DNA of 64,000 nucleotides, from NCBI GenBank assembly GCA_012845835.1, contig JABAKD010000002.1:19118629-19182628 (forward strand), in the 5' to 3' direction. This DNA is from Undaria pinnatifida. Taxonomy: Eukaryota; Sar; Phaeophyceae; Laminariales; Alariaceae. A program made the position numbers and the translations under genes. Each line of letters begins with the position of its first letter. The first letter of the stretch is position 1. This document shows, piece by piece, positions 23,696 through 56,255 of this stretch. The notes beneath the pieces were generated by a model, which was not told the DNA's origin, did no database searches, and saw nothing but the letters and a program-made list of their open reading frames with translations.

Positions 23696-24009
23696 TCAAC
23701 CTATTTTCTAGTCTCCAGCGGCGCCACCCGATTATCTATCGTGTTTTCTCTATCAGGCGTCTTGCTGTCGCTGCCCTCGCCGCCCGTGAAGACCCTTCCA
23801 AAGCTGTCACCCATGGAAAAGTTGCCGTCGTTGCCGTTGGTCGTGTCGCGGAGACGCCAAGTCATCGCCGTTGGGGGGAGGCGCTCGTGACGGGGTCGAG
23901 TCGTGCACGCCGGCTGGAATAGGACACACACGCCTGCCGTATTTCCTTCTTCAGTCGCTCGATGGCGAGAGATTGATCCCGGAAGAGCTATGTCTTGGAT
24001 CTGACCTGA

Positions 24010-24820
24010 GGGCCCGAATTAACGAGGAACTTGCAAAATCGAATTTCGATTTTTTTTTATAGAATTTAGTTTAATTTGCATCTGATTGGTCAAGAAATGG
24101 ATCACCAAGCAGGCATTCTCAGAATTATTACGAAAAATCAAATTCAACAAAGAAGTAAAAAAATACTTTCTCGGTCGAATTTAGTCGAAAATCGAAATTG
24201 AATTTAGGGAGTTTGTCCACCTAGACATGGCTTGTTCTGTGTAACCGAAGCCGGCCACGCGAATTGGTGCCATGTCATCGGCTGATTGAGAGGCGAGAAG
24301 CCAACATTGCGAGAGGTAGGACCACCGGAGCAGCCGCAGCGCGGCCTCCGAAGGTCCTTAGCACAGCGTAGACCGCCTGCGACGCTTCGAAAGCAACCGA
24401 GACCGCCGCAAACCCAGTTTTTCGTCGCCCTGCACCTCGAAAGTTACACGACCAACTACCACATGATGACTTCGCTCAGAAGTTCGACCGCTATATCCCC
24501 GTCGCTGCTGCCCGTGTCGGGCGGCGGGGTGGCGCCAGCCCATCCAAGAGACACCTAGAGCCATAGCCTCCAAGCCGCTGCCGGCCAAAGCATCTGCGGC
24601 TAGCCGCGGCGCTCCGGGGAGGACGCGAGCCATCGCTCGCCTCGGTCGTTGCCCACGGGTGTTCGTTGACCCTTTTGCGTTTTTTGCATTTTTTTATTTC
24701 CTAGAACGCACTGCGCCGTTCCTTGATAAGAACCAAAGTTGAATTTTTCGTTTATTTTTCATGAAATTAAAAAAAAAAAATCGAAATTCGATTTTGCAAG
24801 TTCCTCGTTAATTCGGGCCC
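24010..24820. mobile_element. Non-autonomous TIR transposon, TGA target duplication
   Basis: Left end GGGCCCGAATTAACGAGGAA continues CTTGCAAAATCGAATTTCGA; the right end is its reverse complement over ~50 bp. The flanks are TGA on both sides (24007-24009 and 24821-24823). A 3-bp T-N-A duplication fits PIF/Harbinger-like transposons. At 811 bp the interior has no transposase. It is inserted in the Pro-rich pseudogene, whose sequence resumes on both sides. The near-identical ends suggest a fairly recent insertion. Confidence 0.85.
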
Positions 24821-26571
24821 TGAGGGAAAGAGTTGGGAGTCCTTGGCCTGTGCCCACTACCGGAAGGCTTTGCTCTGCCACTTGTCGTCCGGGAAGAATT
24901 AAAGGTGACCGGCCTGTGTCCGGTTGGTGAGGGGCCCTGCCCTGCCACTTGACGCTTGGGGGGAAGCGTTTGGGACGCGTAGGGGGAAGCGTTTGGGGTG
25001 CTCTGTCTTCATCCGTTGGTGGAGCGTTCTGGACTTCCAGTTTCCGTCTGAGGGGGAGCGGTGGGGGCGCCTGGTCTACGTCCATCGGTAGAGCGCTCGG
25101 CACTTTCGATGGTTGCCTGGGGGCGGGGCCTGGGAATGATTCGCCTGCATCCGTTGCTGGAGCGCCCTGCACTTCCATTTGCCGCCTGGGGGGGGGGCTT
25201 GGGAATATTTGACTTGTGTCCGTCGTTGGAGCGCTCAATTCTGCCCCTTGTTGACTAGGTAGAACCGGTGTGGGTGCCTGATTCACGGCCGTCGGTGGAG
25301 CGCTCTGCACTTCCATTTGCCCCCATGCGGGAAATATTGGGATGCCTGGCCTACTTCCGTTGTTAGAATGTTCTGTTTTGCCATGTGCGCCGCTGTGGAG
25401 GTGATGGTGCCTGATCTATGCTCGTCGGTTGAGAACTCTGTAATTCCAATTGTTGCCTGGGGGGCGGCTTGGGGGTAGTTGGCCTGCGTCCGTTGTTGAA
25501 GGGCTCCACTCTGCCACTTGTCGCCTTTGGGGGGGGGATTGGAGATCCCCGACCCGCGTCCGTTGTCGGAGCGTGCTGTTCTGATATTTTGTTGCCCAGA
25601 TAGCAGCGGTGGAGGGTACTGATCTGCGTTTATCGGCGGGGCACCCTACACAATCGTTTGCTGCCTGGGGGGGGAGCCTTGGGGGTGTTTGGCCTGCGTC
25701 CGTCGTTAGAATGCTCTGTTCCTCCCCTTGTTAACTAGGTAGACGTGGTGGAGGGGCCTGGTCTACATCCATCGGCGGAGCGCGCTGAGCTTCCATGTGT
25801 TGCCGGGGGGGCTTGGGGGTGCCTGGTCTCCGTTCGCTGTTGGAGCGCGCTCTTCTGCCATTTATCGCCCTGGGGGGAGAGGTGGGAGTGCCCGGCCAGC
25901 GTTCGTTGTTAAAGCGCTCTTTTCTGCCACTGTTTGCCCAGGTATAAGCAGTGGAGGCGCCCTATATGTCCATCGGTGGAGCTCTCTGTACTTCCATTTG
26001 TCGCCTCGGGAGAAGCCTTGGCGGTGGTTGGCCTGGGTTTGTCGTGGAGTGCTCTGTTCTGCTACTTGTTGCCTTGGTAGAAGCGGGAGAGGGGCCTGGT
26101 CAACGTTCATCGGTAGAGCGCTCTATACTATTTCACGTATCGCCTGCGTGGGGGGCTCGGGGTGCCCGGCCTGCGTCAGTCGTTGGAGTGATCTCTTCTG
26201 CGAATTGTCACCCTGCGGAAAGCGGCGGGGGTGTCTGGCTTGCATCCGCTGTCGGAGCGCTCTGTTCTGCCATTTATAGCCTAGGCAGAAGCGGGTGGGC
26301 GTGCATTATCAACGTTAATCGGTCGAGCGCTCTGCGCTTCCATTTGTTGCCTTGGGGGTGGTGGCTCGGAGGTGCCTGACCTGCGTCCGTTGTTGGTGCG
26401 TCCTGTTCTGCCACGTGTTGTATTAGGGTAGAAGCGGTGGAGGTACCTGATCTATGTACATCGGTGGAGCGCTCTTCACTTGTCGTTTGAGGGGGGGTAT
26501 CGGGGGCACCCGGCCTGCGTTCGTTGTTGAAGCGCTCTGTTCTACCGCTTGTTGCCTACCCTGAAGTCGTT

Positions 26572-26806
26572 CTACACGGTAGCCCCCCCAGCTTTTCTTC
26601 AACGAAATCGCTCGTTTTGAAACCAGGTCCCGGCCGCATCTCCTGAAATACGGTGTGTTCCCTTGCCACCCCAAGGTCATTGTTCGATAGGCCTTTGCAA
26701 GCGGATATTATTTTATTACTTTTTTTTCATAGCATCTTTCCTGGTGTGGAAGGGCCATCAAACGTTCGTTAAAGATGAACACTGTTTTGGGGGGGGGCTA
26801 TCGTAG
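26572..26806. mobile_element. MITE family M2, copy 1
   Basis: Ends CTACACGGTAGCCCCCC and GGGGGGGCTATCGTAG are inverted. The interior (TTTTGAAACCAG.TC.CGG, CGATAGGCCTTTGCA, AACGTTCGTTAAAGA) is shared with 59417-59661. 235 bp, non-coding, inserted in the Pro-rich pseudogene array. Confidence 0.82.
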
Positions 26807-27150
26807 ATTCACGCCTGGGTAGGCAAAAGCGGTGGAAATGCCTTATATTCATCCGTCGGTGTCGCCAGGGGGGAAGCGTTGGGGGTGACTGGCTTGTTGT
26901 AGTTGTTGGCGCGCTCTGTGTTGCCACTTGCTGTCTGGGCGGAAGAGCTCGGGGTGCTTTGCCTGCGACCATCGGCGAGGCGCTGTGCACTCGCATTATT
27001 TGCCTTGGGTGCAGTGCCGGTGGGATCCGGTCTGCTCATTGGTGAAGCGTTTTTCACTGCCGTACGAAGCTTGTCCTGTGGGAGCATCGGGATCGCCGAG
27101 AAACGAGGCGTTTGATATGATGGACGCCGTTTTTTGTGTCCTGCAATAGA

Positions 27151-27798
27151 CAATGGTCGCCACCTACCTCGGACATAGCCGATGATATTAGCGCTAGTTT
27201 CGTCAGTCCAGGTAGCAGATTAATATCGCGCAAAACATGTCTTTGTGACTAATCAGATACATCAGATACGTTGATTACGTCACCTTCATCTGCTGCGTCA
27301 GCTCCATCAGCTGCATACACCACATGCAATGCCGCATACACCTAGCGTTTTGTGAACGCTACCCAAATAACGAAGAAAGTAACAACCACCCTGCCCACTG
27401 TCAGTTGATACGTGTCTAGTCGCGTATCCACTTCCCACGCAGCGCGCTTGATGCGTCGCTATTCAACCGTGATACTCGTTCTATCAATAGGAACTACTAT
27501 CTGATGAGTCGGAGAGCTCGTGCAGCCTGTAGCAAACGCTCCATGTCTCCTAAACCGACTAGAGCCAGCCAGTCTCGGTCGTACCAATGCTGACCAAGCG
27601 CTCCACCGCGCTATAACACTTATATTACACCATACTGGGGACTAATGATACATGGATAGCTCTCCAATGCCTTTTTTGGTGTAGTTGCGATTGAGTTTTC
27701 GTAAATATGCGCTGGTCTCGCTAGAAGATTGCGTCGAACACCGTATGAGAACCACCCACGTAAAAGCGCCTATACAAACTCAAAGCGTCTTAGCAAGC
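27151..27798. other. No feature seen
   Basis: Probable 5' flank of the minus-strand pseudogene. No motif is identified. Confidence 0.35.
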
Positions 27799-27806
27799 GC
27801 AACAAC

Positions 27807-28156
27807 TAGAGCTGTGAATCGGCAAGATTTCACGACTAAAATCTAATCGGTAGGTGCCTTTAGCAAATAAGTAACATTAGTCCGCAAATAGGCTGACGTA
27901 ACTAGCTGATGGTCCGCCGACTTGCCGCCTCAAGTCAGGACAGCGAAGGGAGCCAAGTCACTCCCCCCCCGGCCGAGCGGGCCCCGCCGAAAAAAGGAAA
28001 ACTGCACTCCGCATGGAGCAATACTTCCTACGAGCGTGGAAACCCAATAAGTCGGATAGCTGGGACCTCCGGGAAACTACCAACTGTTATTTAATAGCAC
28101 GACTAATAAATAGTTGATGACTCAAGTGACTAAAGTCGTGTCGACTCACAGCTCTA
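27807..28156. mobile_element. hAT-type MITE with perfect 8-bp target duplication
   Basis: The left end is TAGAGCTGTGAATCGGCAAG. The reverse complement of the right end is TAGAGCTGTGAGTCGACACG. Both flanks carry GCAACAAC (27799-27806 and 28157-28164). The 8-bp duplication and TAGAGCTGTGAATCGG-like terminus are hallmarks of hAT elements. At 350 bp with no transposase it is non-autonomous. A 61-codon frame inside (27909-28094) is not supported as a gene. Confidence 0.9.
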
Positions 28157-28164
28157 GCAACAAC

Positions 28165-30555
28165 CCGACGCAGTAAGTCGGTGAGTAATGCGGAGGTGCT
28201 GAACCCAATGTGCGGCAAAACATGAAAGGCAGCCGACCGGGGTATGTGATGGAGAGGGTGTTGGCGACAGCTACACCGCTCCAACCGTTTATGAGCCTCG
28301 GTATTGGGGCTAGCCCTACTTTTTGCCTGGGAGAAGCGCGCATTAAAACATCTACAACTCATCACATCCAAGAAGAAGAACCACAAATAAATGCGGGAGC
28401 GCCGGATTGTGACCGCCAGTCTTATCCTGTTGACGAGGATCGTAGTCAGACAAAACAACGGCTAGCAATACTTGTACATGCGGGTGATATTTAAAGACTG
28501 GCAGGGCGAACCCATATGATGAGACCAAGCTTTGCTTCTGCGTGTCTGCAGGAAGCATTGTGGACGACTTCCAAGTATTCCGAGCCACCCAGAGACCAGT
28601 CTGAAAACATATCCCCGTTGTTGATTGATGCTTGTGATTGAGAACATACTACTGGGTGTGGGCGACAGAACCGTGGAGGGAAGGGGCGTGCAACAAGCGG
28701 GGGGTGGAGGGTGAGGGGTGGGGGGCGCGTGGAACACGTGGAAGGGGGTGGGGAGAGAGCTGGAGTCTTGACGGGCGCATTTCGGATGCAGGAGGCAGCG
28801 TCGAGGACCCGTGGACGACACGCAAACCAGGCAGCTCATGCGCCAAGATTTTCAGCTTTGACAAATCGGGTGATGGGGGGGGGGTAGCAGCGGCAGCCAA
28901 TCGTGGCTGCCAACGAGAAGAGCGAGAAGGAGATAAAATACCGTATGGGAGGTTCTAGTAGTAGTTTTATTACAGTAGTAGTCGCTCTATGGTGCCGGTT
29001 GAGCAGTACCGGCCACCTGCTATTGTATAGTGCCTGTGAAACCGCCTGGCACATATCGGAAAAGTCAGTAGTGTGTGTATGTGGAGTAGTGCGTGTTGCC
29101 GCTACAGTGCCGGTGTTTCCGGCTGGCACCAGCCGGCACTATAAAGGAACCACTTTTGTAACATGTAGTTGTGACTGGCGGTGGAGACGATGGCGCTGCT
29201 GTGGCCTACATTTTTTTTTTTCCCTTCTCTTTTCTTCTTTCAAGTTTGTTTCTCTATTCTTTGTTGCGGACTTCTCTCTTTCTTACTGCATGCATCGCGC
29301 ATAAAATGCGACGCACGGAAGGACGGGTGTGGACTTGCCCGGTTTTCACTTGCTTCTCTTTTTCCAGCATTGACTGGATATAATGAGTACTCCTTTTTCA
29401 TCTGAAGTTTGCAGCTTCTGTTTTCTGTGTCGCCGTGGCTTGTGATCACGCATCTTTCTGTGTTGTCGCAGCTTGTGATCGTGCAACTCCAGTAGAATGC
29501 TGAGTAAACCGGCACGGAACCTGGGTGTGCTTCGAGGTGTGTTCGATGTCCGCAGTATTGTAATGGGGTAGAACTGACACCGCTGTTTGATGGTATTATG
29601 TCACGTGTCATACATCTTCACGCGCACAATTTAAGTATTACAATTTTGCACCGACGGGGGCACGTAATTCTGCTCTACTTGTGGTGTATGAACGCTAGTG
29701 ACCCAACAACCTCAGACCTTCAGCCGTCGACGCAAAGCTGATGGATTAAAAATGTGTTTCTGAACGAATGAAAAATAAGTTCAACACCAAAAGGCTTTTT
29801 TCACACCCGCTTTAGCTGCGCGATACAACAGTAACAGCGCAGTCTCAGACATACTAAGTAGGAAGACCACAGCACGTTGTTGGCGTTGCGCACCGCGTGG
29901 AGTGGAGCAGGTATTGATTTAACACGATGGAGGAGTGAAACACTCACAACGGTGGTGTGCAGTACATGTGGGTTACTTTTTGGTTGCTGAGAAACGTATG
30001 TTCCTCTTTCCATGAAGAAAGTAAGCAGGACTAATGCAGCATACCCGTCTACCGGCCGGAGGACAGAAACGGAAATCAGAGCGCAAGGCACCCAAGCAGT
30101 ACGTACGCATGATGACATGTCATCTCTATTTAATAGCAACGACGTACTCCGAGTATAATATTTTTGCTATAACCCTCCACATGGATTTGCGGGCGACGAG
30201 ATCACAGTTCTACACTGGCGAGCGTACTGGTGGACTCCACAAAAGAAGGCACCGTCGCGGGAAGCCTCGTCAGATTATATAGCGGGGGGAGGGTATTTCC
30301 CTCCCGCTGCTAGTATCCATCATTCCTGCGCACTGTATATACCCTGGCATTTACGTCAAGTAGCATAGTTCGAAGAAGGTGACCCGTATTTAGTCTCACC
30401 AGCACAGGCTTATAGCACGCTCACCAGCCGTGATAATTGGTGCTACGTCGGTGCTGGCGTTTGGTTTGGCTCCACTTGGAGGGTATTCCACACGACGTGG
30501 ATAACGTCTCATAATGTATGCTCAGCACGCTGTTCAAACAAATAAAATCGTTTGT
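28165..30555. other. No gene seen; G-rich tract
   Basis: 28670-28770 is G-rich (GGGGGGTGGAGGGTGAGGGG and similar). 29090-29145 has GCCGG/CCGGC palindromes resembling 6350-6480. Open frames up to 133 codons lie in this biased sequence without recognised domains. Confidence 0.4.
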
Positions 30556-30559
30556 GTAA

Positions 30560-32697
30560 TTGGTATGATACATGCATTGATACAATGCAGGATCGCCTTA
30601 GTGACTACTGCGAACGCGAGACCATTTCGCCGGAGGAACAGTGCGGGTTTAGACCCCAACGCTCGACGGTTGGCATGATGTTCGTAGTACGAAGACTGCA
30701 GAAACTGGCGCGGAAGAAGGACATCCCCTTCACTTGTGCTTTGTCGACCTCACCAAAGCATATGACTCCGTCGACCGAACCCTTCTGAGGGATGTCCTTG
30801 CTCGTTTTGGCGTGTCACCGAGAATGCTCGCCGCCATCCGCCAGTTTCACGACGGCATGCAAACATGTGTACGTTTGGATGATGGAGAGCGCTCGGATAA
30901 GTTCGACGTGGGGCAAGGTCTCAGGGAAGGGTGCGCGCTCACGCCACTGCTGTTCAACATAGGTTTCACAGCGGTACTGCGTGTGGCCGAGAAACGCTTC
31001 CTCGCTGATGCAGCCACCACTGACAACATGGTGCAGCTTCAACGAAAGATGAATGGGGAGAAGAAGGGCATATCACGCACAGGAAAAGTCAACGGGCGGG
31101 GGTGGAAGGAGGAGGAGGAGGTAAAGAGGTTGTGAGCTGTACGCTGGCGCTGCGGGCATCGTATCGCGATCATTAGAAGGTCTGGAGAGTATGATGATGG
31201 TGATCGTGACTGCGTGCTCGGCCTTCGGGTTTACGGTCTCCGAGGTCAAAACGGATATCATGTGCCTGCAGACTAAAGGTGAAGGAAAGGTGTCGTTCAC
31301 CATCAATGCCGCCGGCCAGGTACAAGTACAAACAAACGATCGAGTTTGTGTACTTGGACGGACCAATCAGCGCAGACAGAAAACTCTGCATCGAGATATA
31401 ACGCGGCGTCTTCAGAGGGCCTGGGCGTGCTTCCAGCGGTACAAGATGGAAGTCTATGATCGCCCGGGTATGCGCTTGCGATTGAAGGTGCGGTTGCTGA
31501 AATCGGAGGTGATCAAGACATTGCTCTACAGTTGCATGACGTGGAGCCCGAACAAGCCTGATTATGACAAGCTACGACGGCTTCACCACTCCATGCTCCT
31601 CCGATGCCTCGGATGGCGGAAACGGAAGCGCGACGACCACACCCTATCGTACGCCGACGCGCTTGCCAAGACAGCCTCCGAGAGCATAGATGCGATAGTG
31701 CGCAAACGGAGGATATTGTTTGCGGGATTCGTAGCACGTATGCGGGAGGAGCGTCTGCCACAGAGGGTGATGTTTGGGGAGCTTGTTGGGAGTAAGGGCT
31801 ACTCAGGGGGGCAAGAGAAGGACCCGATAGTGCATCTGAAGGAGGATATGTCGGCCTTTGTAATGAAGTTCGAATGGTGGCGAAAGGCTGCACAGAAGGC
31901 CGGCTGATGGCTTCGACGGATAGAGGTGGGAGAGAGTCCTTCATGCGGAAATGGCATGACGCTGTGAGATGCAAAGCTGCAGAGCGACACGCAAAGGCTG
32001 CGGCAGTGCCATTCATCGTCGGCATCTCTAAGCGGCCGGAGGAAGGGGGGTGGGGGGGCGGCGGCGGGGAGGGGAGGGGGGGAAAGGGGGGCGTCCGGCC
32101 CAAGAGACTAAAGTCTGGGTCTGGCCATCATCGTCTTGAAGTTTGTGGACCTTCCACTGGCCGTCACAAGACTGCGTAAGGCCGCCATGACTCTTTTGCC
32201 TTGTTGCATTTTCTCCCCAATGCTATTGGTGCACTTGATACCCTCTATGAGCCCAATGCCGTCTTTAGTCAGTTCTTGGGGTCTGCTAGTACGACATTTT
32301 TTCTCTTTTCGTTCCGTTGATTCCTCTTCTTGTCTTTTCTTTTCTTTTCTGTTCTTTGTTTTTTCCAATCGACTTGCGTATGACGTGCGTATGCGTAGTG
32401 ATAGGCCCTACGTGCAATATATACGTGGTAGTCTTTTCTGGGTGGCAAAGTGGTGTGTTGTCGGTTTTTCAGGCACGAGTAGTGAGATTGATGTACCAGT
32501 ATGGACCTGGCACATCGTAGGCTGACTCCCAATTTAACTTTTGTATACTTTTCTGGCGGAGGCATGAATTGCGTCAGCTATGATATAGACTATGCGTGTA
32601 CCACTTTTGGGTTCTGTTTTTCCCTGGGGTATTCCTGTGACCGCGGACTTGATTATGCGAGTTAAGGTGACAACAACAACAACAACGACAGTGTTTC
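30560..32697 (+). mobile_element. LINE (non-LTR retrotransposon), 5'-truncated, decayed RT
   Basis: The reverse transcriptase fingers read [20 protein letters not shown]. Motif A is [16 protein letters not shown] in a second frame, so a frameshift lies between them near 30730. Motif B is GLREGCALTPLLFN. Motif C is damaged: where the sister copy has LYADDAGIVSR, this one reads LYAGAAGIVSR, so both catalytic Asp are lost. A second part from 31191 encodes the C-terminal region (ITRRLQRAWACFQRYKMEVY; LLRCLGWRKRKRDDHTLSYA; RRILFAGFVARM). The 3' untranslated part includes a pyrimidine tract (32290-32365) and ends CTTGATTATGCGAGTTAAGG plus (ACA)n at 32668-32690. The 5' end is missing. The family resembles brown-algal LINEs as I remember them. 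Confidence 0.9.
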
Positions 32698-33329
32698 GGG
32701 CTTTTATTATGCGCTCTCCTCCTGCTTTTTGGACCAATCATCGATTCAAGTTTTTTATCAGTCGTTTTACCACACAAGTAAGCTTGTTTGGGCGCGTGCC
32801 TCCATACGCCACAATCGCATGTGCTGTGTCTGGCGGTGATCCGCAGCATTATGAACACCCAGCACACTGATTGTCATTAGCTTTGCGTGAGAATAAATCT
32901 AGTCTAGAGAACAAACCTGACCCCTTTGCGTTTGGTGTCGACCTCACTTGGCTTCGAATGGAAGCGATAAAATCTGCGAGTCTCGTCCGCTTCTCAAAAT
33001 TTGGCCGCGGTTCAGACAAGCAAAACATGCTCGATGCAACAGTAGCTTATTCATATACAGCAGTAGTAGGGGTGGTGGCGTGCCGGAGAAATGTAACCGC
33101 CTTAATTGGGGAAGCCGTCTTATTTGTATTTCATTCGCGTATATTGGACACATACTTTGATATTTGGTAGAGCTGTGTGGTCTCTTTCTTTGCCGTTACC
33201 CCGCTATACCCCCCTGCCTGGCGAGACTACGTAACTTCTTACGAGCGTGTTATCTCCCGTGCTTATTTTCCTATCTCGTTTTCATTGTTCTCCCTATACT
33301 TGTCTCCTCGATACGACTTGTTGCTTCAA
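32698..33329. other. No feature seen
   Basis: Short frames only. Confidence 0.4.
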
Positions 33330-33425
33330 CTATGATATATGTGTTAACCACTTTTGGTTTGTTTGTTTTTGTTCCTGGGGGTATTCTTCCACTCCAGCGT
33401 GATGGGGGCCTGCGTCTGTATAGTT
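33330..33425 (+). mobile_element. LINE 3' end fragment
   Basis: ACTATGATATATGTGTTAAC .. GGGGGTATTCTTCCACTCCA matches the 3' untranslated region of the (CAA)-tailed LINE, diverged and lacking its terminus. Confidence 0.6.
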
Positions 33426-33807
33426 ATGCGTGGAATCCTTTTTTGTCGCAACAAGGAACCATTGCTCCTCTACAGCGTCGCGGCAACACCAACAGTTCCT
33501 GGTGCGCATATGATAGATGATCAATCATTCTACAGCTAACGCAACAACTGCAACGCTCAACCTGGTCACGTAAGGGCATACTGATGTGACTGGCTTGAAG
33601 CAGGGACGATCATGGATAAGGGTGCCGTTTTCCTGAAAGCTAGTTTATGGGCGCGGTGTAGAACCCCTCAAGTGAACCTTAGGAACACCCCTGCAGTATC
33701 ATGGGTTGGAATCCCCCCCAATCCCAGTAATATGGTCGGATACATCGTTCAGCCCTTGCCGGAGGGATAGGTGCACGCATTCACCGGTCGTCCTTTATTC
33801 GCGGGGG

Positions 33808-33915
33808 GATTGTTTTCCGTCGGTACAGCGGGCAACCATCCGGTATTGTTTTCCGTCGGTACAGCGGGCAACCATCCGGCGTTGCTTTTCATCGGTACAG
33901 CGGACAACAATCCTG
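33808..33915 (+). repeat. 36-bp minisatellite, three units
   Basis: TTGTTTTCCGTCGGTACAGC followed by GGGCAACCATCCGG, three units. The first two are nearly identical, the third diverged. Confidence 0.9.
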
Positions 33916-34479: not shown

Positions 34480-35330
34480 TGCTATAAAAATTAAAATACA
34501 CTCCAGCTGTGAGATCGAAGATTTTGTCGAAACTCATATTTGCAAGCTGTGTGCGATATCCCGATCGCGCGTATTACTGGGTGTGTGTCCGCATTAAGGA
34601 TGTAGGTCGGCGACTCCCCTTGCAACTACAATGTAGCTATCAGGGTCAACAGGGCGGTGTTAGTCAGTCTGTGCGCGGAAACTACAAAACCCGTTTATGA
34701 AGGAGACAAAGTCTGACAGCTGTGGAAGGAAATGCATCAGTTTATCGAATATACCCTGTATATCCAGTAAGTCGTATAACCGGTGAGGGGGGGGCGGAGT
34801 TAAGAAAACAAAATAAAACGGCGGGCCGGGGGTCAAAAACAGAAGAGCGGGGGGAGGGGGAGGCGAGGGGGGGGGGGCGGGGGCAACTCAATCCGTGCTC
34901 GGAAACTATAAACCCTTTTAGGGACAAATCTGACGATTGTGGAAGGAGTGCATCAGTTTACCATGTATATCCTATAAGTCGTACAACCGGTGAGGGGAGG
35001 GCGGAATGTTCGAAGGGGGGAGGGGGAAGGGGGAATTCCAACCGCTTTAGGTCGCATATATGTATACCTGGTAGGAACTTATTATACGCGTGGTGCTAGG
35101 TCGAGGCCATAGTGCAGGTAGCGGGGAAGGAGAGGGGGAGGGGGGGGTAATTGGAGCTACGGTATGGATGGCTAGTAATAGAAAGAAAATGAGGTGATAT
35201 CATCGGTCTGGTAGCGTTTAACACTCTGGCAGATTTTGATTCTACGCGGGGCGGTGGGAGAGAACACGGGGACAACTCTGACGGTTGTGGAAGGAATGCA
35301 TCAGTTTTCCATGTATATCCTGTAAGTCAT
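34480..35330 (-). mobile_element. Retroelement family R2, long copy
   Basis: Constant 3' terminus at 34495-34510 (minus strand) with a TTTTAATTTTTATAG tail. The upstream body is longer than in other copies and contains a sub-block (GGAAGGAATGCATCAGTTTA..; TTTATAGTTTCCG.GCAC on the opposite strand) repeated about three times (34700, 34930, 35285). G-runs at 34780-34890 and 35010-35140 expand between the sub-blocks. Confidence 0.7.
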
Positions 35331-44085: not shown

Positions 44086-44100
44086 TACCAGATACCTGTC

Positions 44101-44318
<218 letters not shown>

Positions 44319-46170: not shown

Positions 46171-46326
46171 AAATAATGTTGACTGACACCACTGCACACT
46201 GTGTACCTGTGTACAGGCAACACCTCTCGGGGTAACGCGGCGTCAACCATCGCAATATCATACAATTTCGGGCAATGTGATCTCCATTCAAAGATCCTGT
46301 TTTGTTTTATTCAATTGTCAGCCGGT

Positions 46327-46446
46327 CGCCCCCGTGGTCTAGTGGTCTTTACCCTCGAATACTCCTAACGTTTGTTTGTCCTTGAGTTCGATTCCCACCA
46401 TGATGAGATTTGACTTTATTTTGCAATGCAATGCAAAAAAAAAAAG
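46327..46446 (+). mobile_element. tRNA-derived SINE candidate with A-tail
   Basis: GTGGTCTAGTGGT (46334-46346) is a near-perfect tRNA A box. GAGTTCGATTCC (46384-46395) is a B box 38 bp downstream. About 40 bp further an A-run (46435-46445) ends the unit. Stems of a true tRNA do not close: the T-arm and acceptor do not pair. So this is a tRNA-derived SINE or a tRNA pseudogene. No clear flanking duplication is seen. Confidence 0.55.
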
Positions 46447-47755
46447 GACCAACGGCTGAGAGCGCCTAGCAGAGTGGGTAGGTACAATTCGACGCGAGTC
46501 GACGAGGGAAGAAAATGCTGACTTCTTCTCGCGATGAAAATGAAGGCACGTGTCGATGTGGGGAGGGAGGAGGAGGGCCCGCTATTGTGACCCCGGATCT
46601 GAGTTACTACTGCTGCTGGGAGGGAGCGCGAGAGTGGTGCGAGGACAATAAATGGGATGAAAAAAAAAATGTTGCAAAGGTATATTATTACTAGACCGCG
46701 CACAGCACCCCTCCCTATTTTTTTCCGTTTTTTTTTTATTTGTATGTGTCCATTTTTTAGGCAAAAAATATTGACAGGTTACTTATTTTTGGTGCAGTAG
46801 TAGTACATCCTGGAAGAAGATACTACTAGAGTGTCTGCGCCTGTTTTTTTTTCAGAAGTTGGGCTTGCTTTCAGTCGGAAATAAAAAATACTAAACATGG
46901 ACCTTTTCCGCTATCTATGCGCTTAGTCCGAAACGAAAAAATACAACTACCAGTAAGTAACACCTACCTGGTATGTTAGTCTCTAAGTACAGTAGGAAAT
47001 ACGCACGGCACTGTTAGCAGTCATGGTAGAGACACCCTGAATATTATTTACTGAGGGGACGCGTCCGATTTCAACAACGTGAAAGCACCCGTGAAGCAAA
47101 GACAGCAGCAGATACACATATCCCGCCTTCCCGAGTAAAAACAGAAAATAAGCGCTACGCCAACCTCCCGTACGAGCAAAGCCACCCCCGCATCTATCTT
47201 AGACAACGCCGCCGCAACGAGAGATAGCTCTCCTATTCTTCTTCGCTTTCCTCCTCGCCCGTGACCACGCAAACCAATGAATGCGACAGCCTTCAGGTAA
47301 TAAACAAATCAGGTAATAAACAAAGCTCTTCTAGAATCTTCCAAAACCTCGCCGGTTGACATGACCCCATGTCGACGCTTGACGCAAACCGACTTTGCGT
47401 CCTGTCGACTTCGAACCTCCATTGCCACGGGGACAGCAGTGCAGTCTCTTCGTTGATGACAAGTCCTCTTTCGTTTCACCTAGAGGCGAAGCAGGTTCTC
47501 AATACTCTTTTCGGTATTTTTGTTTGATATACGCCAACTTTCACTTGGCGGCGCATTTAACAACAGCAATGTGTTTCGCCTATTCTTGCCTTCTTTGTTG
47601 TATATGACGTTTTTCTTTTGTCAAATTATGCCCTTCATAATATCATGTTTGTATTAAACTCTTGGCATTACTTTAAAGTTCAACGGATGTCAAATCGGAC
47701 AGCTACACCTTAACTTGTCGAAGTGCTGCCCTGCCCTACCCGAAGCATGGGCGTC
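46447..47755. other. No gene supported
   Basis: A minus-strand frame near 47100-47290 (GELSLVAAALSKIDAGVALL) looks mildly protein-like but has no convincing borders. TACCTGGTA occurs at 46965. Nothing else is seen. Confidence 0.35.
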
Positions 47756-48300
47756 GGCGACACTCTCCCCGCCCCTGAAACGGCGGGATAGCAGATCGGT
47801 GGGATATATTTCGTTGAGGAATTAGTGGGGTATTAGTCCGTTTGACCACTTGCAAAAGGTTAACCAGTTGCTTACCCAAACGAAGTCTGATAACACTCCC
47901 CCCCCCTAAAACGGCGGGATACCAGGTCGACCGGATATACACAAAAACGTGTCCATATCCAAGCGAATTTTTCATTCCCTGGGTATACCGGGGAGAGTAT
48001 TTTTTAAGTTCGACACGGGGAAAGTCGTAAAAGTTTATTATTGTGGATGGTGGGATCGAACTCACGACCCAGAAGCCTATGGTCCTGCCGACGACGCCAT
48101 TTGTTAAGGAATTAGTGGGGTATTAGACCGTTTGACTACTGCAAAAGGCTAACCAATAGCTTACCCAAACTAAGCCTTATGACACTTCCTGCCGACGACG
48201 CCATTTGTTAGGGAATTAGTGGGGTATTTTAGTCCGTTTAACCACTTGCAAAAGGTTAAGCAATAATAGCTTACCCAAACTAAGCCTTATATCAAAACCC
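47756..48300 (-). repeat. Tandem repeat with tRNA-like B box, locus 2
   Basis: Three copies of the ~75-bp block (starting near 47822, 48113, 48214) and one body with GGGTCGTGAGTTCGATCCCA. It has the same layout as 39.59-39.98 kb, with spacings of ~291 and ~101 bp instead of ~294. Confidence 0.65.
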
Positions 48301-48544
48301 TTTCGTAGCAAGAAAAAATGGAGTCATGACTGCTGTAAGCGGAGATAAAAGAGAAGGAAGGGCAGTCTCACAGCATAAGAGAGGACATCATGGCGGGAAC
48401 GGGCGTTGAGGGTTTAAACACGGAAGGGCTTTGTGGAAATATATATATGTATATTATATATGCATGCAGTAGTAGTGTTAATAATAGCTGTCGCTATAGG
48501 AATTCGTGCTAGCGGATGTCTGACATCTGATGTTGTAACTGCTG

Positions 48545-48660
48545 TGTCGTGAACCGTTTTACTGGGGTATTCTTCCACCCCAGAGTGGCTGGAGCCCCTG
48601 TCCTGTGACCGCGGCCTTGATGATGCGAGTTAACGTGGGAGCGATAACTAAATTTTCTTG
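48545..48660 (+). mobile_element. LINE 3' end fragment
   Basis: GGGGTATTCTTCCACCCCAG .. CCTTGATGATGCGAGTTAAC GTG matches the family terminus, diverged, without a CAA tail. Confidence 0.7.
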
Positions 48661-48764
48661 GTGTGTATAATATAAATACCTGGCAGTTTAGCGCCAAGAT
48701 AACACACCTGTTGAATAATAACTGTGATATCTGGCACGCATTTTTAAGCGAAATGGTATATTAT

Positions 48765-48897
48765 AAAAATAAAAATACACTCCAGCTGTGAGATCGAATA
48801 TTTTGTCGAAACTCATCTTTGCAAGCTGTGTGTGATACTCCGATCGCGCGTATTACGGGTTGTGTGTCCTCATTAAGGATATAGGTCGGTGACTCAG
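48765..48897 (-). mobile_element. Retroelement family R2, short copy
   Basis: Only the last ~130 bp: constant terminus CAGCTGGAGTGTATTTTTAT TTTTATAATA on the minus strand, 5'-truncated inside the GTCGGCGACTC block. Confidence 0.8.
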
Positions 48898-49289
48898 TCG
48901 AAATGGCATATGTACAACTACAACATAAATATTTCGCAAACTTCTCACACAAGTCACCACCAAATAGTCGTCATGGTGATACTACATGATTGCATATGTC
49001 GAATGTTCTACCTTACGGCCAACTACCAGATCCATGTATGACAACACACCGAAGCTATATTGTAACACATTTGTATACCACAGTTCTAACGTTTTGCTAT
49101 CATCCACCTCCGCTCCCCGCCACCACCACCACCATCACCACACACACCCCCCTTCCCCCACGCACAAAAAAAACACCCCCCCCTCCCCCGCCACCTCGCC
49201 TAAAATCAAGAGTAATGAACACTACTACCAGACAGGTGATATCACCTCATTATCTATCCAGCCAGCCATGCCGTAGCTGCAATCCATTC
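48898..49289. other. No gene; C-rich (CCA/CACC) stretch
   Basis: 49105-49200 is C-rich with CACCACCACCACC words. Nothing else. Confidence 0.4.
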
Positions 49290-49957
49290 AATCCCCCCCG
49301 CGCCCCCCTCCTTCCCCGCTACCTGCACCATCGCCTAGACCTAGCACCACGCGTACATACAGTAAGTTCCTATCAGGTATACATCTATGCGACCTAAAGC
49401 GGTTGGAATTCCCCCCCTCGCCCTTCGAACATTCCGCCCTCTCCTCACCGGTTGTACGACTTACAATATATAAACATGGCAAACTGACGCATTCCTTCCA
49501 CAACCGTCAGATTTGTCTCCGCAAAAAGGTTCTATAGTTTCCGCGCACAGATTGAGTTGCCCCCTCCCCCCCCCGCTTCCCCCTCGTTTTCGCCCCCGGG
49601 CCCCCGTTTTTTTTTTTTTCAACTCCGCCCTCCTGTCACCGGTAATACGACTCACAGGATACACTTATGTCTTGATAAGCTGATGCATTTTCTTCCACAG
49701 CTGTCAGATTTTGCCCCGCTCAAAACGGGTTTTATAGTTTCCGCGCACAGATTTATCAAACATCACCCAGTTGACCCTGGTACAAGCTACAACGTAGTTC
49801 CAAGGGGAGTCGCCCGCCTATATCCTTAATGAGGACACACGCCCAGTATAATACGCGCGATCGGAGCATCACACACAGCTTTCAAAGATGAGGTCCGACG
49901 AAATATTAATCTTCGATCTCACAGCTGGTGGAGCGCATTTTTATTTTTATTGTAATA
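49290..49957 (+). mobile_element. Retroelement family R2, long copy
   Basis: Contains two sub-blocks (CGCATTCCTTCCACAACCGT at 49489; TGATGCATTTTCTTCCACAG at 49681) each followed by TATAGTTTCCGCGCACAGAT, then the common 3' part to CGATCTCACAGCTGGTGGAG with a TTTTTATTTTTATTGTAAT tail. Confidence 0.78.
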
Positions 49958-50339
49958 GGTTTTTGTCTCGATCGTGTGGGTCCCGATCACTGTGGTTCCC
50001 CGCCACAAAACAATGTCCACCAAAAAAGAGGATGCAAATCCAAAGTAAGGGTTTCACAGCTGTGCACTTCTTCGTGGAAAGCGTTATTATCATGGCACAC
50101 CTGTTGTTGTTGCTGCTGCTGCTGTTGTTCCCAAGGATGGATGGATGGTGTGTCTGAAAAAGAAAACTCGACCAATTCCTAAAAGGTTCATTATTTTTCA
50201 GGAGATCCGGCGGCCGGGCGGAACACACACGGAGACTTCGGTACCGAACACGAAGGTAGAGAGTAGGAGCCCCTTTTTTTCGCTCGTATAGTAAGTCATA
50301 TGTTACATATTATACTCACATTTATCCATCATAACAAGA

Positions 50340-50500
50340 TCAGACATCAATCGTCCACGCGCGGCGGACAGATCACCGACCCCCACTCACTCGATGATCT
50401 AGACCTATTCGAGGAATATCTGTATGGTGTAGCTCACGCTAACGGGTGGGAGCCGTGCGATCTGCGTGATTCCAGCAAATGTTTCTATTCTAACAGGGTT
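50340..50500 (+). CDS. Possible orphan exon, unknown protein
   Basis: A frame reads TDPHSLDDLDLFEEYLYGVA then HANGWEPCDLRDSSKCFY. Its acidic helix plus W-E-P-C-D-L-R-D looks like real protein rather than biased noise, and nearby frames are poorer. I cannot place reliable splice sites and do not recognise it. It may be a decayed exon. Confidence 0.22.
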
Positions 50501-50779
50501 GGATCTGTACGCTTCTTCTCTATACTGCGTATACACCAGGCAAGAAGAGGTAAATGCGTCTTACGCAGAACCAAAAACCGCCACGCGTCGCATACCTATA
50601 CCCGGTGGCTGTGCGCTCGTTGTCTGCGTCTGCTCTGCACATAGAACGTTCCTGGTACTTGGTATCCAGACCCCCTCTTTGGGTATGACATTGCTTTGGC
50701 ACCAAGCTCTCTGGTCTAGGTTTGGCGCCGAGCTTGCTTGCGCTGCTTCGGCGGCAAGGACGAGTGCAGCGATAGGGGT

Positions 50780-51265
50780 ACCCCTTTTCAGTAGTAATAT
50801 TTTCTGAATGACGGGGCTCATAACCTATGAACAAAATCGTCGGAATGCCAATTTTCTTGGAGGGGGGGGGAGGGGGGGGTCATTCTCTTATTGTGTTCCT
50901 AGGCCGTGGGTTTGTTCGTCGGGTTGCCTTTTTTCGGTTTCCTCAAAAACTGTTCTGTGGGTGAGGTACTAATATTATGGACCTCCTCAAGACCACAGGC
51001 TACGGTAGGCAGTCGGGGGGTGGGGGGTACCCTCGTTTTTTTAACTCATGGATTTGAGCTATCATACTGTCATACTTGCACGAGTGACTCTGTACCTCAC
51101 TGACGAAAATACTTTTTACGCGATATGCTTGGCGCAGCGTGGCTAATTACTGCGTTGCGGATTCACGCCGCGAAATAAAAATAGCACCCGAGCTTAAGAC
51201 CGATAAAGGAACAGGGGGGGTGTCGCTCGCGCGAGTGACTCCGGGCCACGGAAAAAAAAAATGCC
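50780..51265. repeat. Nested dispersed repeats D and F
   Basis: 50790-50850 (TTTTCTGAATGACGGGGCTC .. AAATCGTCGGAATG) is family D reversed. 50895-50970 (CCTAGGCCGTGGGTTTGTTC .. GGGTGAGGTA) matches 60.10-60.15 kb and, reversed, 56.68 kb. 51050-51260 is family F with palindrome TCGCTCGCGCGAGTGA. Confidence 0.55.
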
Positions 51266-51489
51266 CCCGAAAGTGAACTCCCCCGCGCAGCCTGGGTCCC
51301 TCAATAGGTTAGGAGCCTCGGGAAACAAAAGAGGTGCCCACACCCTCTACCGAAAGTTGTGTTCATTGCACACAAGTCGGGACATTGCATACGGTCAGTC
51401 TTCCGCGCTGCGGTTTCCTGGGTGTGCACTATGTTGCCTCATGGGCAGTCCCACGGCGGTGACATGGATACGACATAGCGTTCTATCGT

Positions 51490-52165
51490 ACGTTCATGAA
51501 CGTTCATGGTGTATTCCTGAAAGCTCATGGTAATGCCGTGGTGCTGCCATGATATTTCCCTGGGACTGCGATGGGATTTCCATGGGACTGTCACGGGTCT
51601 CTCACGGGTCTGTCACGGGACTGTCACGGGACTGCCACGGGACTGCCACGGGACTGCCACGGGACTGCCACGGATGCTGCCATGATACTTTCATGGAACT
51701 TCCACGGGACTGGCACGGGATTACCGTGGACCTGCCATGGGTGCTGCTATGATACTCCCATGGGACTGCCATGACAATTCCATGGGACTGCCACGGGACT
51801 GCCGTGGAACTGCCGTTGGACTGCCATGGGAGCTGCCATGAGAGCTGCCGTGGGACCGCCATGGGGGCTGTTATGGGACGGCCATGGGACTACCACATGG
51901 GACTAATTTCACATGGGATAATGAACCACCATGGCACTGCCATGACGGTGCCATCGATTGCGATGCTAGCTGCCATGGCACTCTCATGGCACTACCATGA
52001 GGCTGACACACGCACACCGTGGGGCTTTAATGGGACTGCCATGGAACCCTCACGGCATGTCGTGGCATTTCACGGCACTTTCGCGGCGCCTCATCGCCCC
52101 TCATGGAGTCAGATGACGAGATCTCATGGACTGTCACCCACGGCACCTCATATGGCCTTATGATC
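51490..52165 (+). repeat. GGGACTGCCAYG minisatellite
   Basis: Dozens of ~12-bp units GGGACTGCCACG / GGGACTGCCATG, cleanest at 51590-51670, drifting on both sides. CCATGG makes units self-complementary. Frames such as D-C-H-G-T-A-T-G-L-P-R are translations of the repeat. Confidence 0.92.
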
Positions 52166-52752
52166 GTAACACTTTATGAAGCCTACCTACCTCATGGCAG
52201 TCCGAGGCAATTCTATTTTATTGGCATGTGCAACCCAATGACACCCTCATTGTAGTCCCCATCACAGTTGTTATGAACGCTTCACGAAAACTGCCACGAA
52301 ACTGTCACATGTCAATCGGCTTCGTCAACGTTCATGAAGTCACGTATACGCCGTGAGAAGTGCAACGGAAACCGGTGAAAGCGCACGAACGCGCTTGGAG
52401 CGCAAGGTGCCGTGAAAGCGCATGAAGACCTGGAACGCAACCACTCAGGCGATTACGCCACTATGACCTGCTTCTGGACAGACCATGCGCGGGGGACGGT
52501 CCACCTATTTTGTACCGGTATGTCAAACACAGGAGATGCATTATTTTCGCGGTATCAGTATCCGCTCATACCCGAGATTGAAAAAAACGCCGCAACAACA
52601 TTGTCGGCCACACCCGACGTGTTGAGTGTTGGCGATTATCTGGCACACAGCTAACACGACAATATACGCCCATCGTCTCGTATCCCGGCCCTCAACGTAC
52701 TCCCACAGGACACGCTTGATTCATTGTACAGCAGTGAGGAACGGTTTCAGCG
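52166..52752. other. Upstream flank of the Pro-rich gene
   Basis: Contains decaying minisatellite words (CTGCCACGAAACTGTCAC, GTGAAAGCGCA) to about 52440. Downstream, TTGATTCATTGTACAG ending at 52731 and GCAGTGAG at 52738 are possible acceptors for the exon that follows. Promoter elements are not identified. Confidence 0.4.
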
Positions 52753-53816
52753 ATGAACGAAGACCAGGTACCACCGCCACTTCCCCCCCGGGGGCAAATG
52801 GAAGCGCTGAGCGCTCCATCCCCACCGCTTCCCCCGAGGCCACGGGTGACATCGCGGAACGCTTCTTCAACGCATGCAGACCAGGCACCCCCAGCTGAGC
52901 TTCCCAAGCAACGAGCGGGAGCGCGAGCCGCTACACCGATATATGGCGATCCAGCATCCCCATCGGGTCCTCCCAAACCAACGGTGCCGGTGTGGGGCAC
53001 TCCATCGATGTGCGAAGACCTGGCACCCCTAGCGGCATCCCCCAGGTGGCAAACAGACGAGCAAGCCGCTCCACCGATGTACGCGTATGTAGCCCCCGCA
53101 GCGCCACCGCCCAAACCAGAAGTGGCAGGGGCAGACGTTCCGCCGACGTATGCAGATCTAGCCCCCACAGCGCCCCGCCGCAACCGAGCGGTGGGCGCGC
53201 TCGACGCCTTTTCGCCGGCGTGTGTACATCTAACACCCCCAGCACCTTCCGTCACACCGTCCGCAGCAGCGCTCTACGCTCTACGGTTGCGTGCAGATGA
53301 AGAAACACCCCCAGCGCGTTTCCCCGCCCCAGTGGCTGTAGACGACGCTCGGCCGGAAAGCGCAGATCTAGCTCCCAATACCGACCAAGCAGTGGCAGCG
53401 CGCGGCGTTCCACCGATACACGCCGATCGAGCCCCCCCGCAGCTTTCCCCCAAGGCAGCGTTACCTGCGCGGAGGGCCACAACGCCTGGTGCGGGTAGGG
53501 CACCTCCGATGCCTCCGCCCAGGCCCGACCCCAGACCCGACATTGCGGGGCAGACACCCCGCTATCGAGCGAGTGAAGGGGGTGGTGCGGTGGGCGGGCT
53601 TCCTGCTCGAGCTGGCGTGCACTTCGCGACACGATCACGGGAGCTTCCCCCAAATGAGCATGGCGTGCCCGATAACGGCGGAAGCGGCAGCGGTGGAGGC
53701 GGCGGCGGTAGCCAATACTCCATGGGCGGTAGCGGGGGAGGCGAAAGGGGCGACCGTGACGGTCCTGAGGAAGATGATGTTCTCAATGACCGCCTTGAAG
53801 AGCTAGAGAAGAAGAG
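52753..53816 (+). CDS. 23-residue Pro-rich repeat protein, exon 1
   Basis: An uninterrupted 354-codon segment. It opens MNEDQVPPPLPPRGQMEALS and continues in 23-residue units, such as RVTSRNASSTHADQAPPAEL-PKQ, TVPVWGTPSMCEDLAPLAAS-PRW and EVAGADVPPTYADLAPTAPR-RNR, with P-P-x-x-A-D-x-A-P as the core. About eleven units drift toward the end (to roughly residue 260). A Gly/Ser-rich linker (GGSGSGGGGGGSQYSMGG) and a charged helix EEDDVLNDRLEELEKKR follow. The exon ends in phase 2 at donor GTCAGT. The first unit is partial, so an upstream exon is possible and the ATG is a convenience start. No signal peptide is seen at this start. Pro-rich repeats may bind SH3/WW-like or wall partners, which is inference. 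A broken inverted paralogue lies at 23.7-27.2 kb. Confidence 0.6.
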
Positions 53817-55033
53817 GTCAGTCAGTCCAGCGCGGAGGATACGGATGTTTCTTTGTCTTGATCATTGTATTTTGTTTTCTTCGACATAATCGGACATATT
53901 TGTGTCTTGTGTGTTTTTCTCGGATCCCTTAAACGTACATTTCTACCTGGTAATCTAGGTCGTTTCAATGCCTTCAATTTTCCGGCATATGAGGTGTGAG
54001 GGGGGCCTGTGCATGGTCTAGATACGAAACACGATAACGACAGGCAAGTGTTAGCGCTTGGCAAATACTGAGAATGTTCCACCAACAAAACGGTTTCACG
54101 TATTCCACGGCATTGCAAATATATATAGGTGTGTGTTATATAGGTGTATGTTGCGTTTTCTTCGTTATAGATGCCACATGACGGGACAACAAAATCTGAC
54201 CACTCTCTATCTCGCCCTACCCTAGCTTCGTCGGACCATGCGTTTTAGTTGCGTTGATTCGCCGCGGCGAGCCGTATTTTATGCCACGCTCGGCGGAAAG
54301 TTCAAGACTCGTCGGAATATCAATCGAATTTCCAAACGGTCCTTACATTTCGACCCAGAGCGATACAGCGCTGTAGCACTGTGTACCAGATTCGAGCAAG
54401 AACGAAGACGGTCACCGGTTGCATGCATTGAGGTTACAGAGCAGAAACGATCGACTCTACGAAGATCGGGGGGTGGGGGGGGGGTTCTTCCATTGGTATG
54501 CCTTTTTTTCTGTTTTATTTTCTGTGACCACGGGGTCTAGATTGGGTACAGGGGAGACAGTAATGCCTCCTTGTAGTGGACACCTTCCAATTACCTATTC
54601 TCAGGTAACTGCCTAAACTACATCTACGGGGAATTAGGAGCTTTCCAAGGCAATAAACACCCCAGGAATAATCACAAGTCTTTTTTGAAACTTTAACACC
54701 TTCTTAAAGTGCTGGGAAAATTAATCCCGCAGTGAGGACCGCTCTTGCCGAAGCAGGCGTTTGTTGATTTTTTCCAGTATTTTTTCTTGAAAAACTACAA
54801 AAAAAAAACTTCTAATTTCCAAACAAATACCACAGGAAAAGCCGTATTTTCTATTTTTATTTTTTTAAGCTTACTGGGTAGTTCCACGCCTGAGGGCCTC
54901 AACCGGTCAGAACCTTCCGGCCCAAAAGCAGCATCTTTTACCGCGAGATGACTCGCTGTGCGTTCCAATTCTCACCACGTGGCGTCTTGAACGCCTTCCA
55001 AAACGTATTGTCGTTTTTTTTTTCATCGGGCAG

Positions 55034-55187
55034 GGATAGATGGCAGGTCGTGGAATACGCCGTTAATGCTCCAGCCTACCTGGAGACAATGGAGGGTGTT
55101 GCGAGGATGGCTCAACACGGGGCCAATGTGGGTAACGCTTGCCTGTGGGGTGTTATGATTGTTCCATGTTTGGCCATCTGGCAATGA
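55034..55187 (+). CDS. Pro-rich repeat gene, exon 2
   Basis: The acceptor is a T-run, then CATCGGGCAG. The exon starts with one base completing the split Arg codon from exon 1, so phases agree exactly (..LEKKR then DRWQVVEYAVNAPAYLETME, GVARMAQHGANVGNACLWGV, MIVPCLAIWQ-stop). This extends the helix of exon 1 and ends in a hydrophobic stretch that could be a membrane anchor. Alternatively the exon may end earlier at a cryptic donor and join the block at 55624, which repeats the motif HQGANVGEA. Confidence 0.5.
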
Positions 55188-55623
55188 TCCCAATGGCAAA
55201 CGGGGGGGGGGCTTTTCTGGGGACTACCAGATCAAGGGGTTATCGAAGCATAACTATACCAGCAAGCTTTTACAATCACATGTTTCGAATACATAAGATG
55301 TGAGTTCGATCGGTTGAGTGGTCGATGCAGCACCCAGCACCCAGCTTTGCAAAGCTACGTGATACATTGGGCACGCCTTTTTCAAACAATTACCCATCGT
55401 TAAGGATGTACGAAGTAAAATATGCAGTTTACCGACTCCCCTGTGCGCTGACAAGTAAACGGGAGTTTTTTACGTGGGCGATTTCGAGCTACAATCGTTC
55501 TGCGCGCGCTGCTACTACATAACCCGTGTCATATTGTATGCAGGAGGTTATCTACGGTTGAAAAATTACCTCATGATGGCACCAATGGCTCCGAAACATC
55601 GATGATCCCGAACATGAATGCAG

Positions 55624-56255
55624 GCTGTTCACCAAGGGGCTAACGTGGGCGAAGCAATTGTAGCAGGAGCCCGCCATGGGGGCTCCGCTGGGCCGGGGCT
55701 CGAGATGGCCGGAGGTGCTACTGCAGTAGGAGCAGACGCGGGCCAAAACATCGAACAGGTATCTCGCATTACCGAAGGAGCTGCAGCAGCCGGTGGAGAA
55801 GGGGCTTGGGTTACCGGAGAAGCTTCCGCGGTGGGTGAAGAGGGAGCTCAGATTGCCGAACAAGCTGTAGCAACCGACGGGGTTCGGATTGCGGGAGAAG
55901 CTTCAGCGGTGGGCGGTGACGGGGGAGCTCAGCTAACCGATCACGTTTGCGTGGTGGGTGGGGAAACCGTTCTCGCTGAGCAGGCGGGGGCGACAACGAC
56001 CGCGGAAGCTGTTGCAAACCCTCCTGGGACTTGGGAAGCGGCGGATGGAGTCGATGCCGGAGCCGTCGAGATGGCCGACGGGGCTCAGGCTACCGAATTT
56101 GCGGCCGGCGGGGACACCATCGTCAACCCGGAGGGGCTGGCGACCGCTGAAGGCCTTGCAGACGGCGGACCGGCTTGGACAGACGTGGGGAACGCGGATG
56201 TCCCGGTGGACGAGGAAGTCGCAGGCATCATCGTCGAGGGTCACCAGTATTACTC
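55624..56255 (+). CDS. Ala/Gly-rich exon, same family, exon 3 candidate
   Basis: Between an acceptor GAACATGAATGCAG and an ideal donor GTAAGT, 210 codons stay open. They begin AVHQGANVGEAIVAGARHGG, continue with A/G-E-A-x-A-V-G-E repeats (TGEASAVGEEGAQIAEQ; AGEASAVGGDGGAQLTD) and end VDEEVAGIIVEGHQYYS. Low Lys/Arg and the absence of cysteines beyond one suggest an extracellular or structural region; that is inference. Its AVHQGANVGEA echoes MAQHGANVGNA of exon 2, so the exons may be duplicates. It ends in phase 2. The next exon is not identified; the exon at 62177 starts in phase 0, so an intermediate would be needed. Confidence 0.42.

Follow-up and report, generated by a model that had tools for sequence, protein, structure and literature searches.

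A proline-rich repeat exon of Undaria pinnatifida is very likely the first exon of a clustered PLAC8 gene

PLAC8 proteins of plants have been tied to fruit size, cell number and heavy-metal transport (PMC10380795). In swimming Phytophthora zoospores, two PLAC8 proteins rank within the 50 top genes (PMC7409359). Members of the FW2.2-like/PCR metal-transport type carry the motif CC(I/L/W/F/V)XXXXCPC, with some members being without it (PMC10380795), and PCR proteins are described as small (PMC12467093). MCA proteins, mechanosensitive Ca2+ channel proteins of land plants of about 420 residues, combine MCAfunc with PLAC8. MCAfunc was reported to be confined to streptophytes, and the full MCA protein to land plants (PMC8049495). 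Here, we analyze a stretch of 64,000 nucleotides of the brown alga Undaria pinnatifida (GenBank assembly GCA_012845835.1, contig JABAKD010000002.1, positions 19,118,629 to 19,182,628), called the window throughout. The window carries two copies of a gene with degenerate proline-rich repeats, one on the plus strand (P) and a wrecked one on the minus strand (M). The proline-rich exon is very likely exon 1 of a single PLAC8 gene with a long repeat arm. Comparisons of sequence alone place the genes, together with two further copies outside the window (F and T), as an unusual version of the known PLAC8 family.

The predicted models of P, F and T comprise 11, 11 and 10 exons and encode 1027, 875 and 863 amino acids, respectively, each with a terminal stop only. 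All three full proteins match PLAC8 (PF04749) over positions 1-101 of 101, with E-values of 1.8e-13 (P), 5.1e-14 (F) and 3.3e-15 (T) and scores of 51.7, 53.4 and 57.3 bits against a gathering cut-off of 34.4. The domain is spread over exons 9-11 and split by two introns, yet it is matched whole. Joined exon pieces gave E-values of 2.7e-15 (T), 4.8e-14 (P) and 3.1e-11 (F). The PCR/CNR profile TIGR01571 (NCBIfam), for which P was the sole query, was matched with 44.3 bits against a cut-off of 35.05 at positions 2-103 of 105. A Pfam scan of the three full proteins at E 0.5 recovered no family besides PLAC8. The PLAC8 exons of P are located 12.3-14.8 kb past the window end. Seen by itself, the repeat exon resembled an orphan gene because these exons lie 12-15 kb beyond the window, and the first-pass annotation of the window had taken the repeats for a stand-alone, undescribed family. 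This no longer holds, as the proline-rich exon appears to open a gene of 10-11 exons ending in PLAC8. Pfam returned nothing on the P exon 1 stretch, only MEDS under its cut-off on the P exon 3 stretch (15.2 vs 29.8 bits), and only SfsA_N under its cut-off on a stretch of the minus-strand array (14.3 vs 25 bits). No relative of exon 1 was found among phages (tblastn) or in PDB by sequence, and a search of viral contigs with the pattern of its tail produced 146 pattern matches, none of them confirmed. The PLAC8 part of P gave one unrelated match in PDB by sequence (E 0.62). Rfam at the gathering threshold and a tRNA search found nothing in the window.

The likeness to PLAC8/PCR-CNR-FW2.2-like proteins lies in the full PLAC8 domain and in the first cysteine motif, whose CVxxxxCxC spacing is kept in all three copies. 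The CPC region reads CVTTCLCMC in P, CVTTAFCMC in T and CVTSFCCGC in F. Compared with CC(I/L/W/F/V)XXXXCPC, the proline is replaced and all other positions are kept in each copy. Since members without the CPC motif exist, PLAC8 membership stands, and metal transport is not claimed. The cluster proteins differ from PCR proteins by their length of 863-1027 residues, the long proline-rich arm, the Ala/Gly spacer and the Met or Gly in place of the CPC proline. They resemble MCA in that a longer multidomain protein ends in PLAC8, and the charged, helical-looking stretch found here can be compared with the middle coiled-coil of MCA (PMC8049495). The Pfam scan at E 0.5 gave no MCAfunc-like or EF-hand match, a dedicated MCAfunc profile not having been run. 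The arm architecture does not appear to be that of MCA. Resemblance to SH3-ligand scaffolds is confined to short motifs without membership: a PPxLPxR-like motif recurs in the units and class II-like motifs are in excess in P and F, with class I motifs showing no excess. The combination of PLAC8 with a long repeat arm and a spacer of variable length has no description in the literature searched, outside of which most subscription papers lie.

Exon order is identical in P, F and T, and splice phases agree in the downstream DNA comparison and the exon alignments. The start ATG of exon 1 sits at the corresponding place in P, T, F and M, and exon 1 of P ends in phase 2 before GTCAGT. Exon 2 is present in all four copies. 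Exon 3 starts in phase 0 and has 211 codons in P, 100 in T and 63 in F, with an end common to P and F (IVEGHxYxS before GTAAGT) that is found in broken form in M. In T (C26:19306023-19303446, where C26 is the contig of the window), the end of exon 3 is in phase 0 rather than 2, so that it joins exon 5 in frame. The earlier description of P as open, with an in-phase splice from 53816 to 55034, agrees with homologous sites of the same phase in F and T. The junction is thus predicted from conserved sites and phase. The single second exon described behind this acceptor does not stand. The frame from 55035 hits a stop at 55185-55187 unless a second intron (55128-55623) is removed, so that two exons are needed, at 55034-55127 and 55624-56255. 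A phase 1 donor for exon 2 was rejected because exon 3 begins in phase 0 in P and T. Nor is 56255 the end of the gene; a GTAAGT donor is found there and the gene model runs 14.8 kb past the window. The 5' flank of P is probably non-coding, and its CCCACAG at 52702-52708 is a possible acceptor of a 5' intron. Coding use of the flank was rejected because the reading frame is not conserved among copies.

The proline-rich repeat genes form a local cluster of at least four paralogues on C26, spanning about 173 kb from the last remains of M to the start of T. The assembly searched totals 511,146,479 bases over 68 contigs, with the window at C26:19118629-19182628; counts of copies in the genome are lower bounds. 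A search with P exon 1 recovered T on the minus strand at C26:19312650-19287552, 105-130 kb past the window. The T protein in turn recovered F on the minus strand at C26:19228443-19209635, with E 0.002 genome-wide and E 1.9e-9 in a smaller local search. The inverted paralogues of the first-pass annotation are hence retained, and the pair becomes a cluster of at least four copies. The same annotation had named a lack of homologues outside the window as a ground for giving up the gene, and F and T lie outside. Beyond the cluster, genome searches with exon 1 and array queries gave nothing else except two short rows on contig C22 (C22:11937684-11937793), which match part of P exon 1 only, mainly the Gly-rich stretch. 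P exon 3 searched as protein and the M array searched as DNA each recovered only themselves, so searches with repeats only would have missed the family. A frame-by-frame PLAC8 search of the genome found P, F and T in pieces as well as C22:8750271-8750573, a lower bound from a search that was without a positive control (0 of 14 control genomes matched). Compared with the full cluster proteins, this C22 locus shows a PLAC8 match only (four rows at E 1, low-complexity masked). It belongs to another PLAC8 gene at C22:8748950-8750576 with at least two exons, and four proline-rich frames are found in the surrounding 30 kb.

P and M are related beyond composition. A 69-bp unit, or 23 residues, had been described as common to both arrays, and both exceed codon shuffles at this lag: identity is 0.404 against 0.293 (sd 0.014) in the plus exon and 0.358 against 0.272 (sd 0.009) in the minus array, with 0 of 500 shuffles reaching the observed value of either array at any codon lag tested. 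Direct tests of the repeats were weak, with a best E of 0.078 for P exon 1 against the minus array (tblastn within the window), and none of the best 80 rows of a blastn of the window against itself links the two arrays. Restricting blastn to the two array regions, excised from the window, gave matches up to E 5e-6. DNA alignments of the flanks score 108 on the 5' side (minus 27284-26998, plus 52492-52799; best of 200 shuffles 34) and 82 at the 3' tail (minus 23967-23829, plus 53560-53692; best of 200 shuffles 31.5). Exon 2 is found again behind the minus array (E 0.009), as is the end of exon 3 (28 of 33 bases). As unit similarity alone would not establish common descent, the case for homology of P and M comes chiefly from the flanks, exon 2 and the end of exon 3. 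The Gly linker with [FY]-S-M-G, the charged helix and the matching donor position were all recovered in both arrays as first described. The FSMG/YSMG motif and the charged helix recur in both further open copies, as NYSMGDG, RYSIGGS and DSALDARMEKLGKK in T, and as RFSMDGG and DEDEVSELEKK in F. The worry that the similarity is only low-complexity composition is answered by flank homology, conserved splice phases and dN/dS. M was correctly described as wrecked by two insertions, both of which are now located, and has stops in all frames. Insertion 1 looks like a non-autonomous DNA transposon, and a 94% copy adjoins T at C26:19313343-19314157. No M exons later than exon 4 were found on the far side, where 30.8 kb were examined at E 0.01.

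Substitution patterns indicate that the arm is under purifying selection and is less constrained than the PLAC8 end in both comparisons involving F. Exon 1 dN/dS is 0.47, 0.53 and 0.40 for P-T, P-F and T-F, with synonymous sites near saturation in the F comparisons (dS 1.7 and 2.0) being a weak spot. For P-T, the ratio of 0.47 in frame rises to 1.07 and 1.07 in the two shifted frames, and differences by codon position number 84, 83 and 132. Pooled exons 4-11 have dN/dS of 0.49, 0.43 and 0.36 in the same order, with another weak spot in exon 11 (0.72 in P-T). Bootstrapped pN/pS ranges are 0.49-0.69 (P-T), 0.68-0.88 (P-F) and 0.61-0.79 (T-F) for exon 1, compared with 0.44-0.78, 0.40-0.63 and 0.33-0.57 for exons 9-11.

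A gapless 23-residue profile with the consensus APPTDADQAPPALPPRRQVAAQS recognizes 39 units, with 21 in M (three frames), 7 in T, 6 in P and 5 in F. After shuffling, exon 1 of P, T and F contains on average 0.23 profile windows (maximum 2 over 100 shuffles), compared with 19 in the real sequences, the profile being trained on the very units it counts. The F arm (exon 1, C26:19228443-19227416) additionally contains a private 27-bp expansion of REVPQAKGA-like units. SH3 class II-like PxxPx[RK] motifs number 5 in P (1.2 expected from shuffles, p 0.007), 7 in F (1.7 expected, p 0.001) and 4 in T (1.5 expected, p 0.06), and [LV]PP[RK] occurs 2, 3 and 2 times in P, T and F (p 0.004, 0.001 and 0.02), repeated units being non-independent trials in these statistics.

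In these models, exon 1 encodes a low-complexity arm of degenerate 23-residue units, presumably disordered given its composition, and runs into exon 2 through a charged stretch that is probably helical. Exon 3 provides an Ala/Gly-rich spacer of very variable length. Exons 4-8 are rich in Cys or hydrophobic, exon 7 containing one strong hydrophobic segment, and exons 9-11 form the PLAC8 domain. In a 19-residue hydropathy window, the first above-threshold segment is found in exon 5 or 7 in all three copies. With no hydrophobic segment before exon 5, the arm is likely to hang in the cytosol and the C-terminal half would be located in the membrane. The repeated PxLPPR/PxxPx[RK] motifs and the few PPxY could offer many weak docking sites for SH3/WW-type partners. 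The arm might thereby gather signalling or cytoskeletal proteins at a PLAC8 assembly. We put forward such docking by a multivalent cytosolic arm, suggested by the motifs, as a tentative possibility. The function of the PLAC8 part would by analogy be carried over from plants and fungi.

Several observations weigh against a single PLAC8 gene with a docking repeat arm. Splice sites were picked by eye from alignments, and the counts of AG at 29 of 29 acceptors and GT at 28 of 29 donors are partly built in; the remaining donor, of T exon 7, reads GC. Not built in by this choice are the agreement of phases, the frames open to a conserved final stop and the domain emerging whole. In place of the CPC proline, P and T have Met and F has Gly. 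Exon 6 has a P-T dN/dS of 0.91 at low dS, with no constraint seen. The 69-bp signal of the F arm is weak (lag-69 z 2.1, main period 27 bp; P 8.7, T 6.6), and lag 141 exceeds lag 69 in T. SH3 class I motifs number 1, 2 and 3 in the three copies without excess in any, and PPxY 2, 1 and 1 (p 0.02, 0.28 and 0.06). Seven motifs were tested in three copies without correction, and the PPxLPxR pattern was picked after seeing the sequences. The T model is without exon 4, which was not among the best 12 of 19 and the best 14 of 17 F-versus-T matches, with no search aimed at it. This gap would also suit two neighboring genes duplicated as a block, a Pro-rich/Ala-rich gene of exons 1-3 and a PLAC8 gene of exons 4-11 or 5-11. 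We regard such a block as improbable. The introns between exons 3 and 5 are long, with 4.6 kb between P exons 3 and 4, and exons 1-3 were joined to the PLAC8 exons by sequence comparison. However, exon 3 ends in a GTAAGT donor with no stop codon there in P, F and the remains of M, and exon 4 resumes the phase of exon 3 in P and F. The shorter exon 3 of T joins exon 5 in frame from phase 0, and all three copies agree in exon order and strand.

Even less probable is that the cluster is unexpressed, with every copy a duplicate in decay within a region rich in repeats. M is clearly dead and the window is rich in transposon copies, yet the frames of P, F and T stay open for 863-1027 codons, and dN/dS stays below 1 in exon 1 and pooled exons 4-11, with synonymous sites near saturation with F. 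A secreted wall glycoprotein of the arabinogalactan or extensin type, with the arm hydroxylated and glycosylated outside the cell, seems similarly remote. Exon 1 does contain 18-20% Pro and 15-16% Ala with many AP/PP pairs. For arabinogalactan proteins, at least 50% of P, A, S and T is often used as a criterion; exon 1 reaches 45.8% in P, 47.7% in T and 41.2% in F. Furthermore, the 19-residue hydropathy window detected no hydrophobic N-terminal segment in any of the three models with their predicted 5' ends, and the protein runs on into a PLAC8 domain. A PLAC8 gene with a proline-rich first exon thus remains the preferred reading. Its features in P and M are listed in Table 1.

Table 1. Coordinates of predicted features of copies P and M (window positions unless a contig is given)
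Feature	Position	Strand	Description
P 5' flank	52492..52752	+	alignable with M (over 52492-52799) and with T (from about 52643)
P exon 1	52753..53816	+	Pro-rich arm, degenerate 23-residue units, Gly linker with YSMG, charged helix
P exon 2	55034..55127	+	DRWQVVEYAVNAPAYLETMEGVARMAQHGAN; acceptor GGGCAG, donor GTGGGT, ends in phase 0
P exon 3	55624..56255	+	Ala/Gly-rich spacer of about 211 residues, ends IVEGHQYYS before GTAAGT, phase 2
P exon 4	60870..61017	+	Cys-rich; homologue in F, broken remains in M, absent from T model
P exon 5	62177..62346	+	homologues in F and T
P exons 6-11	C26:19186165-19197420	+	outside the window, up to 14.8 kb past its end
M exon 4 remains	20799..20912	-	in-frame stop
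M exon 3 end remains	22252..22284	-	IVEGHEYH with GTAAGT
M exon 2 remains	23123..23216	-	NKAQHLEYAVHGTGYADQWQGKVEMVQEGAQ; acceptor kept, donor reads TT, not GT
M exon 1 remains	23701..27039	-	longer Pro-rich array, stops in all three frames, two insertions
M insertion 1	24005..24825	-	about 820 bp, 54-bp inverted ends 98% alike
M insertion 2	26576..26811	-	repeat 77% like window 59419-59666

Further repeats surround the cluster genes. Between M and P, two pairs of inverted repeats are found at 31097-32362 / 46161-44842 (81%) and 34484-35214 / 49950-49225 (80%). The first pair contains reverse-transcriptase-like frames, of which 45025-46242 matches RVT_1 at its cut-off. An 11-bp minisatellite of the unit TGGGACTGCCA at 51561-51895 (30 copies, 73% matches) lies within 1 kb upstream of P exon 1. 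Intron 2 of T carries a satellite-like GATCCC-AACATGAAT array (C26 about 19306950-19306350) up to the exon 3 acceptor, and the exon 3 acceptor of P lies within a single stretch similar to this array, GATCCCGAACATGAATGCAG. Elsewhere in the window, a TGT microsatellite is located at 44097-44316 (73 copies, 98% matches). A perfect 218-bp tandem duplication with a third, diverged part spans 12506-13035, inside a Pro/Ser/Ala-rich open frame at 12389-12856.

A repeat exon seen alone was mistaken here for an orphan, which calls for caution in annotation, and the supposed orphan family gains a testable home in PLAC8. The cluster copies appear to diverge mainly in how the arm is composed (342-354 residues, with unlike repeat periods) and in the length of the spacer (63-211 residues), and their membrane part is alike. 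The fast-changing multivalent arm could act as a tunable scaffold, with each gene gathering different SH3/WW partners around a metal- or Ca2+-handling assembly, an idea that we still consider doubtful. A cluster with unlike arms on one type of membrane part would offer a good setting for studying the role of such arms.

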